The position numbers were made by a program, and so were the translations under genes. 11,719 nucleotides of DNA from an uncultured bacterium. Its GTDB lineage: Bacteria > Patescibacteria > JAEDAM01 > Absconditabacterales > Absconditicoccaceae. This document shows positions 683 through 7,744 of the stretch, one piece after another. The stretch is taken from the NCBI GenBank assembly GCA_903904545.1, contig CAIVDB010000039.1, positions 1 to 11,719 on the forward strand, in the 5' to 3' direction. Numbering within the stretch: position 1 is the stretch's first letter; each line of letters opens with the position of its first letter. The notes below the pieces were generated by a model. That model was not told the DNA's origin, searched no databases, and was given only the letters and a program-made list of their open reading frames with translations.

Positions 683-737
683 TGATCTAAAAAATCAGTA
701 ATCTAACGAAATGTAAGAATTTTCTTAATCAGCACGT

Positions 738-765
738 ATTCATTATTCATTATTCATTATTCATT
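738..765. repeat. four 7-bp repeats (ATTCATT) over the flippase 3' end
   Basis: Four exact, phased copies of ATTCATT run from 738 to 765. Read on the minus strand (AATGAAT) they supply the last codons and the TAA stop (743-745) of the flippase gene. The other four minus-strand genes here also end at a heptad array. Confidence 0.85.
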
Positions 766-2967: not shown

Positions 2968-3081
2968 AGCGAACTTAGTAGGAAATAAAACAAAAATAGT
3001 GTAAGGGCTTAGGGGGAATAATCAAGAGAAATTAATGTTAGTTTATCGGTGTATTGGGAATTGGCGTATTGGGGGGGGGGA
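2968..3081. other. non-coding spacer ending in a run of ten G
   Basis: I see no gene or RNA here. It contains G-rich short repeats (GTATTGGGAATTGG, then GCGTATTGG) followed by ten consecutive G residues at 3071-3080, unusual in such AT-rich DNA. The run abuts the 32-unit heptad array. Confidence 0.7.
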
Positions 3082-3305
3082 ATTCCTAATTTCTAATTTC
3101 TAATTACTAATTCCTGATTCCTAATTACTAATTCCTGATTCCTAATTCCTAATTACTAATTACTAATTCCTGATTCCTAATTCCTGATTCCTAATTTCTG
3201 ATTCCTGATTCCTAATTCCTAATTCCTGATTCCTGATTCCTAATTCCTGATTCCTGATTCCTAATTCCTGATTCCTAATTCCTGATTCCTGATTCCTGAT
3301 TCCTG
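3082..3305. repeat. 32-unit tandem array of 7-bp repeats (consensus ATTCCTR)
   Basis: The 224 bp divide exactly into 32 heptads without a single indel. Most units are ATTCCTG or ATTCCTA; variants are ATTACTA, ATTTCTA and ATTTCTG. Variants cluster at the left end while the right end is nearly pure ATTCCTG, consistent with recent expansion from the ksgA side. The array ends 1 bp before the TAA of ksgA, so the ksgA transcript would carry a purine-rich CAGGAAT/TAGGAAT tail. The period of 7 and lack of spacers exclude CRISPR. Heptameric STRR repeats of heterocystous cyanobacteria are a loose analogy. Confidence 0.97.
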
Positions 3306-3306
3306 A

Positions 3307-4314
3307 TTATTTTATAATAAGAGCGATGTCCTCGAAATTAAGCTCTTCCAATCTCCTCTTCTTCAATGTTTCTGGGATAGAAAATAAGCAGAATTCTTTT
3401 CACGACTTTCCTCCATCTTCCCTGCCTACCGGACAGGCAGGTTCGAAAACCCTGGACCTTCTTCAATTTTCCTCTATCTTCCTCAACGTTCCTCAATTTT
3501 GGTCAATTTTGTTCGATTTTGAACTATTTTTTTCAAGAGAACGCTTCGTTACAATTTTTTCAATTGAACCAAGTGTCTTCCTACTAAACGGCGCATACAA
3601 TTCTAAAAAACACAAAAAAGAACTCCATGAAACTTTTAGTTTTTCACTTTTAGTTGTTAGTTGAACCAAGCAACTCTTCACCTTCGGAGCAGGCTTAAAA
3701 CACTTTGCAGGGACTCATTTGAGATAGACAACATCATATGCATAATTGATCATCCATCGAAGATAAGATTTCTTTTTAGCATCGCTACGAAGTTTTTGTC
3801 CTACCTCATCTTGCAGCATAAAAATTCATCATGCATAATACTGTCTCCCCTCTCCAAAAAACTTTCTCAATATCGGCGAAGTAATATAATAGGGAAGATT
3901 ACCAACCACAAGGGTCTTCTTTGTGTCTAAATTTTTATTTTGCAATAGTGTATCTACGTCTATTTCCAGAACGTCGCCTTGAATAATATTGAAGTGCGTT
4001 CAGTATTCAGAGTGAAGAGATAAGAGGTTAGTTCAGGGTTTAGAATTCTGAAATCAACTCTGAATGCTATGTTCTGTACTTTGCACTCAATTTTGCACGC
4101 TGACTTCTAAACTCTGCGCTAACGAAACATCTTTTTCAATCACAAAAAAATTATCAGAAATATCCAGAATAAGTTTCGTTATAGCGCCCTTCCCCGGTCC
4201 AATCTCTATCAAGGCCTCACACCCCAAAGAGGAATACAGACTTTGAATATGTTCAGCAATATATGTTCTTACCTTACTATCTATAAGGAAGTTCTGTCCA
4301 AGATACGATCACAT
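3307..4314 (-). CDS. ksgA: 16S rRNA adenine-N6,N6-dimethyltransferase KsgA/RsmA with repeat insertions
   Basis: KsgA dimethylates two adjacent adenines in the 3' hairpin of 16S rRNA using S-adenosylmethionine, late in 30S assembly. The 335-residue product starts ATG-TGA (M-G) and shows family motifs in order: LGQNFLID (5-12), SAM-binding motif EIGPGKG (37-43), acidic E60 (FVIEKD), GD at 113-114, catalytic NLPYYITSP (139-147), FMLQDEV (165-171), and VPAKCFKPAPKVKSCLV (201-217). The end (RRLEELNFEDIALII) matches the usual RAEELSVEDF ending. Eleven TGA codons are read as Gly. Relative to E. coli KsgA (273 aa) two extra segments stand out, roughly residues 66-107 and 261-313; both coincide with repeats in the DNA. 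Because all motifs and the C-terminus remain in frame, the gene is probably functional. It diverges from folC. Confidence 0.9.
3410..3530. repeat. 10-bp tandem repeat array with a nested palindrome, inside ksgA coding sequence
   Basis: From 3451 to 3530 eight consecutive 10-bp units occur on the plus strand: CCTGGACCTT, CTTCAATTTT, CCTCTATCTT, CCTCAACGTT, CCTCAATTTT, GGTCAATTTT, GTTCGATTTT, GAACTATTTT. In the ksgA sense the consensus is AAAATTGAGG. Another unit (CCTCCATCTT) lies at 3410-3419 beyond the palindrome at 3421-3441, so the palindrome appears inserted into the array. Translation is uninterrupted because TGA is sense. Confidence 0.88.
3421..3441. repeat. CCTGCC...GGCAGG palindrome, copy 1 (inside ksgA)
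   Basis: A 21-bp imperfect palindrome, CCTGCCT-ACCGGAC-AGGCAGG. It encodes PACPVGR in KsgA. A near-identical 20-bp copy lies at 7485-7504. Short GC-rich palindromes like this resemble REP/BIME-type elements. Confidence 0.85.
3996..4121. repeat. degenerate 7-bp repeat tract inside ksgA coding sequence
   Basis: About 126 bp can be phased into heptads, clearest at 3996-4044: GCGTTCA, GTATTCA, GAGTGAA, GAGATAA, GAGGTTA, GTTCAGG, GTTTAGA. Further on ACTCTGA-, ACTTTGC- and ACTCAAT-like words recur every 7 bp. The tract encodes about residues 66-107 of KsgA, a segment of low sequence complexity rich in Q, S, N and G. The family normally needs only about a dozen residues here between the acidic SAM-binding strand and the GD motif. 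Confidence 0.6.
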
Positions 4315-7426: not shown

Positions 7427-7625
7427 TTTTCTCCCCACACAGTGCAGTCATCCCGGTGTTATTGGTGAGGAACGAACCTACAACCCTGCCTACCGGCAGG
7501 CAGGCGGGATCTCAATAACTATCTTAAGATGGAGTTTACCCCGCAGTATTGCAGGGGCCGCAAATCCTTAACCCTTCGACTTCGCGAAGGACAAGCGCCG
7601 GAATGACAAGAGCGTGGGGAGAAAA
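7427..7625. mobile_element. 199-bp MITE-like element with 12-bp terminal inverted repeats
   Basis: TTTTCTCCCCAC at 7427-7438 is the exact reverse complement of 7614-7625. A second inverted pair lies inside: GTCATCCCGG (7447-7456) and CCGGAATGAC (7598-7607), 9 of 10 matching. Between them are three local hairpins: the CCTGCC/GGCAGG palindrome (7485-7504), CCCCGCA-GTA-TTGCAGGGG and CTTCGCGAAG. It is more GC-rich than its surroundings and has no convincing ORF. This could be a non-autonomous mobile element or a structured RNA; I favour the former because of the flanking 19-bp direct repeats. No tRNA or known riboswitch pattern fits. Confidence 0.6.
7485..7504. repeat. CCTGCC...GGCAGG palindrome, copy 2 (intergenic)
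   Basis: The 20-bp sequence CCTGCCTACCGGCAGGCAGG differs from the ksgA copy only in the centre (ACCGGC versus ACCGGAC). It lies within the 199-bp element. Confidence 0.85.
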
Positions 7626-7709: not shown

Positions 7710-7744
7710 ATTCAAAATTCAAAATTTAGCATTCAACATTCTCA
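7710..7744. repeat. five 7-bp repeats (ATTCAAA type) at the 3' end of ppdK
   Basis: ATTCAAA, ATTCAAA, ATTTAGC, ATTCAAC, ATTCTCA follow in strict 7-bp phase and end 3 bp from the ppdK stop. They share the ATTC core of the other arrays in the same orientation. Between here and the terminator there are only two TAGTGTAG copies. Confidence 0.75.

Follow-up and report, generated by a model that had tools for sequence, protein, structure and literature searches.

In-frame inserts of short-repeat DNA in the ksgA gene of a code-25 Absconditicoccaceae bacterium

Repeat DNA within genes and the present locus

The STRR sequences of filamentous cyanobacteria are heptad arrays dispersed between genes, a layout shared by heptad arrays in the window analyzed here (the whole stretch of DNA under study, 11,719 nucleotides), which consist of other units and belong to another phylum. 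Inside genes, Rickettsia palindromic elements (RPEs) are described as dispersed repeat DNA that has entered conserved proteins in frame, in parts exposed to solvent (PMC2229807, PMC3767692). Intragenic REPs of the GTAG and CGTC families are reported as palindromes of 20–40 bp that are mostly intergenic and sometimes intragenic, where grouped ones encode 20–30 amino acids and clusters 43–82 (PMC3733652). A code-25 candidate-phylum genome, that of the BD1-5 Gracilibacterium, is reported to carry a hypervariable PTD-repeat gene with coding tandem repeats (PMC6851277). Among the matches listed in our literature survey, which left subscription papers mostly outside, no title or abstract opening dealt with in-frame inserts of repeat origin, whether in KsgA or in Absconditabacteria.

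The locus described here, a ksgA gene with two inserts (Table 1), resembles the RPE case in that repeat DNA lies in frame inside a conserved gene. It differs in that RPEs are palindromes of 100–150 bp with terminal inverted repeats, whereas the ksgA inserts are mostly degenerate 7-mer and 10-mer runs plus a single 21-bp palindrome in insert 2, and their RNA folding was no better than that of shuffled sequences (z −1.44 for insert 1 and −0.49 for insert 2). The palindrome occurs twice in the window, as a variant in ksgA and as an exact copy elsewhere, and in 29 exact copies in G161, the closest relative genome found; G161 contains no match to the strict decamer pattern. The likeness to Rickettsia elements put forward in the original prediction holds as an analogy, that of in-frame repeat DNA in an intact gene, and fails as membership, there being no palindrome of 100–150 bp; by this comparison, the ksgA inserts appear to act like an RPE inside a gene while falling outside the definition of the RPE family.

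With intragenic REPs, the locus shares short palindromes that stand mostly between genes and sometimes within them. A length of 20–40 bp at high copy number applies to the palindrome only (G161 has 29 exact copies and G195 has 19, with none for a reversed-pattern control), and the REP/RAYT arrangement of a tyrosine transposase flanked by the element was not seen in G161 at any of its three Y1_Tnp genes. The PTD-repeat gene is alike in that its tandem repeats are coding and its genome belongs to a candidate phylum using code 25. Its unit, a 9-mer, leaves the reading frame unchanged and encodes a conserved peptide in a single putative surface protein, whereas the ksgA units have 7 and 10 bases, encode no conserved peptide and lie in a housekeeping enzyme.

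Table 1. Positions of ksgA, its inserts and nearby repeats in the window
Feature	Position	Strand	Remarks
ksgA (rsmA) CDS	3307..4314	−	335 aa, genetic code 25
Insert 1, residues 77–107	3994..4086	−	Degenerate heptads in both orientations; 3 in-frame TGA
Insert 2, residues 261–308	3391..3534	−	Decamer run plus palindrome; 3 in-frame TGA
Five consecutive decamers NNAANNTWGA, single phase	3463..3512	−	
Palindrome CCTGCCTGTCCGGTAGGCAGG in ksgA, 7-base arms	3421..3441	−	Variant of dispersed family
Heptad array AATTCCT/GATTCCT, 32.6 copies	3081..3308	+	3' spacer, up to and into the ksgA stop codon
Second palindrome copy, exact consensus	7485..7504	+	Intergenic

The ksgA gene and its two inserts

Judged from its sequence, the open reading frame is a KsgA-type rRNA dimethylase of predicted activity, the name resting on the best-scoring family, the fold and the homologues: it scored 125.1 bits against the Pfam RrnaAD domain (cut-off 24), and its predicted structure has the KsgA fold. 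Its score of 146.1 bits falls below the 171 required by the NCBIfam equivalog TIGR00755; five relatives also fall short, at 135–156 bits, of which only P0016 has a site-2 insert, so we regard the shortfall as a lineage trait and not as an effect of the insert. Under code 25, the frame runs unbroken from ATG to TAA and includes the NLPYYI motif, in line with the original prediction that the motifs are kept in frame.

That prediction also placed two in-frame repeat inserts in the protein, and both were confirmed, the first with a period of 7 and the second with a period of 10 and a GC-rich palindrome. They were delimited in an alignment of the best 120 of several thousand matches, with the window counted among the aligned rows and P0002 left out because it comes from the window's own contig. 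Across residues 77–107 and 261–308, nearly all positions checked are filled in fewer than 20% of 119 homologues (20–23 of 119 at the edges), and the flanking residues 74–76, 109, 259–260 and 309 are filled in 117–119 of the 119. Both inserts are known from one contig only.

Identity at lag 7 is 52% in residues 76–107 (z 5.4) and identity at lag 10 is 59% in residues 258–292 (z 6.4), values that none of 2000 dinucleotide shuffles reached in either case. No signal at period 7 or 10 survived correction in the four core segments tested: the lag test gave family-wise p values of 0.62 for residues 1–67 and 0.39 for residues 180–230 (best lag 7, z 2.0), and residues 109–258 (p 0.012) and 130–180 (p 0.0065) were significant but at lag 3, which is the codon period. 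The period-7 signal upholds the description of the first excess as heptads, although insert 1 proved to be a mix of degenerate heptads running both ways, with an exact inverted pair (ATTCAGAGT/ACTCTGAAT) and no clean array. In insert 2, the palindrome stands behind the five decamers, and one more decamer-like unit lies past it, one base out of phase. A structured RNA in the inserts was rejected on the folding values given above and on the lack of any Rfam match in the window.

Other repeats were observed around and within the gene. A run of ten G at 3071–3080 adjoins the large heptad array, and by eye the first 400 bases downstream of the G161 ksgA contain no comparable array; additional short heptad runs of other units are intergenic, at window positions 737–765, 2478–2506 and 7710–7741. 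The linker at about residues 217–226 (LTTKSEKLKV; window 3600–3722) has DNA that is loosely of period 7, a reading that is non-significant once corrected (the lag-7 value for residues 180–230 above); its length is not increased, and it is longer in 5 of the 120 rows.

Insertions in relatives, in two genomes and under code 25

Net internal insertions of at least 10 amino acids occur in 36 of the 120 aligned rows (window included), where the database homologues are known as peptides only and repeat types were judged from translation. Of 119 rows, the window among them, 81 have a short site 2 of 20 residues; the remaining 38 have a longer one, with peptides that by eye sort into decamer-like, DKAPSGRDK, FHDVE and other types. 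The decamer-like type was recognized by eye in P0001, P0004, P0007, P0016 and P0026, and a long site-1 insert of a kind similar to that of the window, again judged from peptides, in P0003, P0005 and P0006; by these last three and by the last four of the decamer-like rows, the inserts are not strictly strain-specific, the point on which the original prediction had asked for relatives to be compared. Palindrome-like peptides stand in other loops of single homologues (NLPAGRQG in P0056, AGRQ in P0053).

On a tree of the 120 rows, built after the insert columns had been removed and with support under 80 on 50 of its 116 inner branches, a site-2 insert (threshold >22 residues) is gained or lost at least 22 times and a site-1 insert (threshold >23 residues) at least 15 times, counts that with these thresholds take in small length changes as presence or absence; P0120, which is truncated at its C-terminus, was scored as without a site-2 insert. 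The decamer type at site 2, with its rows picked by hand, changes a minimum of four times. Two close pairs bear on how such differences arise. P0016 and P0023 are almost the same protein, with differences limited to the insert and the residues next to it, one more short stretch and individual residues. In P0060 and P0102, two insert sites differ along with the sequence around them. Insert and near flanks differ jointly in both pairs, as if exchanged between lineages, which suggests exchange of segments as well as insertion.

Among 37 relatives for which DNA was at hand (39 loci minus two without a recognized KsgA frame), 14 are longer than a set threshold somewhere among four sites. Of these, L084 is over it at every site, L088 and L093 are over it at two, and the others each at a single site. 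The inserts of L084, L088 and L107 are by eye palindromic or repeat-like; the long site-1 segment of L111, the site-4 segment of L101 and several 28-residue site-1 segments were counted by length and not as repeat DNA. The L107 protein has two PSPLP/PGPLP..GEGE peptides, at two loops, which are presumably encoded by a known kind of palindromic repeat.

Beyond ksgA, G161 was compared with 1.008 Mb of G005, a distant relative, over 746 orthologue pairs, which yielded 118 insertions of at least 10 amino acids in G161 and 71 in G005. Two of the G161 insertions contain N and were dropped, leaving 116, of which 94, 76, 45 and 36 matched elsewhere in G161 at 27, 30, 33 and 36 bits (the last being the strictest of the four cut-offs), as compared to 829, 385, 106 and 45 of 1160 controls. 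The corresponding G005 counts were 56, 34, 12 and 4 of 71, as compared to 588, 375, 122 and 51 of 710 controls, with no excess of repeat-like insertions at any of the four cut-offs. An exact 13-mer test agreed with the bit-score test in G161 (24/116 vs 39/2320 controls) and gave 6/71 vs 113/1420 controls in G005. Carried over to relatives, the search for repeat-encoded segments across the genome that the original prediction had proposed was positive in G161, at 36 bits, and negative in G005 and for the strict decamer. Some of the 36 repeat-like G161 insertions probably reflect domain repeats in surface-type proteins (OA_962, OA_273); in G161, repeat-like in-frame insertion is not confined to ksgA. 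Among tandem arrays, periods 7 and 8 are the commonest in G161 and fall outside the twelve commonest in G005.

With respect to the genetic code, six of the eleven TGA codons of ksgA lie within the inserts (Fisher p 0.024 per residue, p 0.23 among glycines), which bears out the predicted half; looser bounds that add residue 76, itself filled in 118 of 119 homologues, give seven of eleven (p 0.005 and 0.11). Units of 7, 8 or 10 bases show every triplet in every frame, so a TGA in the unit shuts all frames under the standard code. Reading TGA as sense in the period-7, -8, -10 and -11 arrays of G161 increases the number of open frames only from 547 to 657 of 1104. In-frame TGA is present in 21 of the 36 repeat-like G161 insertions, and TGA accounts for 45 of 971 codons in those insertions, 24 of 1274 in other insertions and 2793 of 186,890 in aligned blocks. 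Octad arrays in shared coding genes number only four (three with TGA in the sense orientation, one antisense), too few for a statement on orientation.

The comparison set consisted of the best 120 of several thousand matches to a Harrisonbacteria query (L049), and was treated as standard-code on the ground that the query gene has an unbroken frame under table 11; the names of its rows are mixed, and some of its insertions are not recognizable repeats (P0213 and P0217 are odd). Net insertions of at least 10 amino acids occur in 25 of its 120 rows vs 36 of 120 in the window set, a comparable rate; when the two sets were aligned jointly, the counts became 43 and 47 of 120, a discrepancy that we attribute to differing C-terminal regions in the two groups. 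CLPAGR-type peptides are found in some of the table-11-query homologues, with 4 of 120 rows in each set. By either alignment, the standard-code set does not appear poorer in inserts. Code 25 as a requirement was therefore rejected, on the size of the gain in open frames and on the inserts in table-11-query KsgAs: it lets TGA-bearing inserts stay open, yet it is not needed. The original claim that code 25 favors such exaptation is weakly borne out, in that TGA-bearing inserts do stay open, against a rise of only 110 frames in 1104 and the inserts of the comparison set.

Origin and meaning of the inserts

We consider it probable that the inserts result from recurrent and tolerated insertion of repeat DNA into permissive loops of KsgA, with multiple-of-three lengths kept, the core selected and the loops largely disordered, and such recurrent insertion and turnover explains the finding better than a single curiosity does. 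Short repeat DNA, among it tandem runs of 7-mers and 10-mers and GC-rich palindromes, would repeatedly land or grow in a few loops, an insert would persist if it is divisible by three in length and leaves the frame open, and the translated repeats would be tolerated as largely disordered surface loops around a core under purifying selection. We infer that the loops are translated within a working enzyme; insert 1 may be an older, degenerate heptad run common to the nearest relatives, the palindrome of insert 2 may have entered the decamer run, and slippage or exchange between relatives may alter the lengths.

An AlphaFold2 model from 80 sequences (mean pLDDT 82.7) gave means of 51–67 for the ten-residue blocks of residues 71–110 and of 49–63 for those of residues 271–310, with the remaining blocks at 80–98 except the first (56). 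The inserts are thus predicted to be mostly low-confidence, loop-like and probably floppy segments on a confident KsgA fold, as the original prediction had asked of a structure, with the exception of block 261–270 at the start of insert 2 (mean pLDDT 80), which prolongs a predicted helix. This partly helical start, the position of site 2 in what we take from knowledge of the family to be the C-terminal domain, and the occurrence of decamer-like site-2 inserts on separate branches would suit functional, selected lineage-specific extensions, for example loops contacting rRNA or a partner, with the repetitive DNA incidental. We regard that as unlikely, given the low pLDDT of most of the inserts, the unrelated peptides or short form at the same site in relatives, and the homologue alignment, in which neither insert contains an invariant or nearly invariant column. 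On the same grounds, a conserved lineage-specific domain was rejected, and the conserved amino acid sequence that would have spoken against repeat inserts is not found in relatives.

The palindrome of insert 2 belongs to a dispersed family that is amplified in two of 49 family genomes, G161 and G195; the exact consensus has three copies in G208, one each in G004 and G183, and none in the other 44. A looser pattern has 59 copies in G161, four of them within shared coding genes, and none in the analyzed part of G005 (1.008 Mb). Genes of the Y1_Tnp transposase family occur in 15 of the 49 genomes, G161 and G195 among them. True mobile palindromic elements of RPE or REP type, moved by a transposase, nevertheless seem a quite improbable source: both inserts are mostly degenerate tandem repeat that folds no better than shuffles, 12 of the other 13 Y1_Tnp genomes have no copy of the palindrome and one has three, and within 700 bases around the three G161 Y1_Tnp genes there is neither a palindrome copy nor a perfect hairpin with 10-base arms. 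Single arm-like words lie near two of these three genes; transposition by them was rejected on the lack of a palindrome copy. A further element, CCCACGGGATAGC (peptide LSHGIAK), was observed on the G161 contigs C10, C24, C30 and C33, with short repeats flanking some copies, and its peptide also occurs in another loop of the P0026 KsgA. CCCACGGGAT has five matches in the analyzed G161 sequence, four of them with the longer element, and each lies within a conserved coding gene, in contrast to the CCTGCC palindrome with its four of 59.

RsmA is reported to be less conserved in CPR bacteria (PMC12641178), and frequent absence of KsgA in such bacteria could ease a decay of which the inserts were the first steps. 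Such decay is very improbable here: no frameshift or stop was found in ksgA, NLPYYI is kept, homologues with inserts retain the same conserved columns, and the core, compared with the G161 gene outside the inserts (231 codons), has a pN of 0.152 and a pS of 0.718. The core is under purifying selection, which indicates that the enzyme is kept by selection; the pseudogene reading was rejected. An assembly or binning artefact, suggested by the single contig and the nearby repeats, is extremely unlikely, since the frame is preserved through both inserts and independent homologues have similar peptides at the same sites.

Recurrent, tolerated insertion extends what is described for RPEs and intragenic REPs to tandem 7-mer and 10-mer runs in a lineage of candidate-phylum bacteria that use code 25. 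The remodelling of loops in a housekeeping enzyme can be counted here, with many states of one site across 120 rows and close pairs that differ. The case also serves as a warning that gene models in such genomes will meet repeat-encoded segments, and it amounts to a natural experiment that shows where KsgA can accept extra loop sequence. A wider idea, which we put forward tentatively, is that tandem runs whose unit is not a multiple of three, together with palindromes, may give candidate-phyla bacteria a continuous, lineage-specific source of new loops across the proteome, gained, exchanged and lost at a few permissive sites, with code 25 merely widening the choice of usable strand and unit. 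If so, the length and sequence of loops would differ between otherwise nearly identical proteins, even in ribosome-assembly enzymes.
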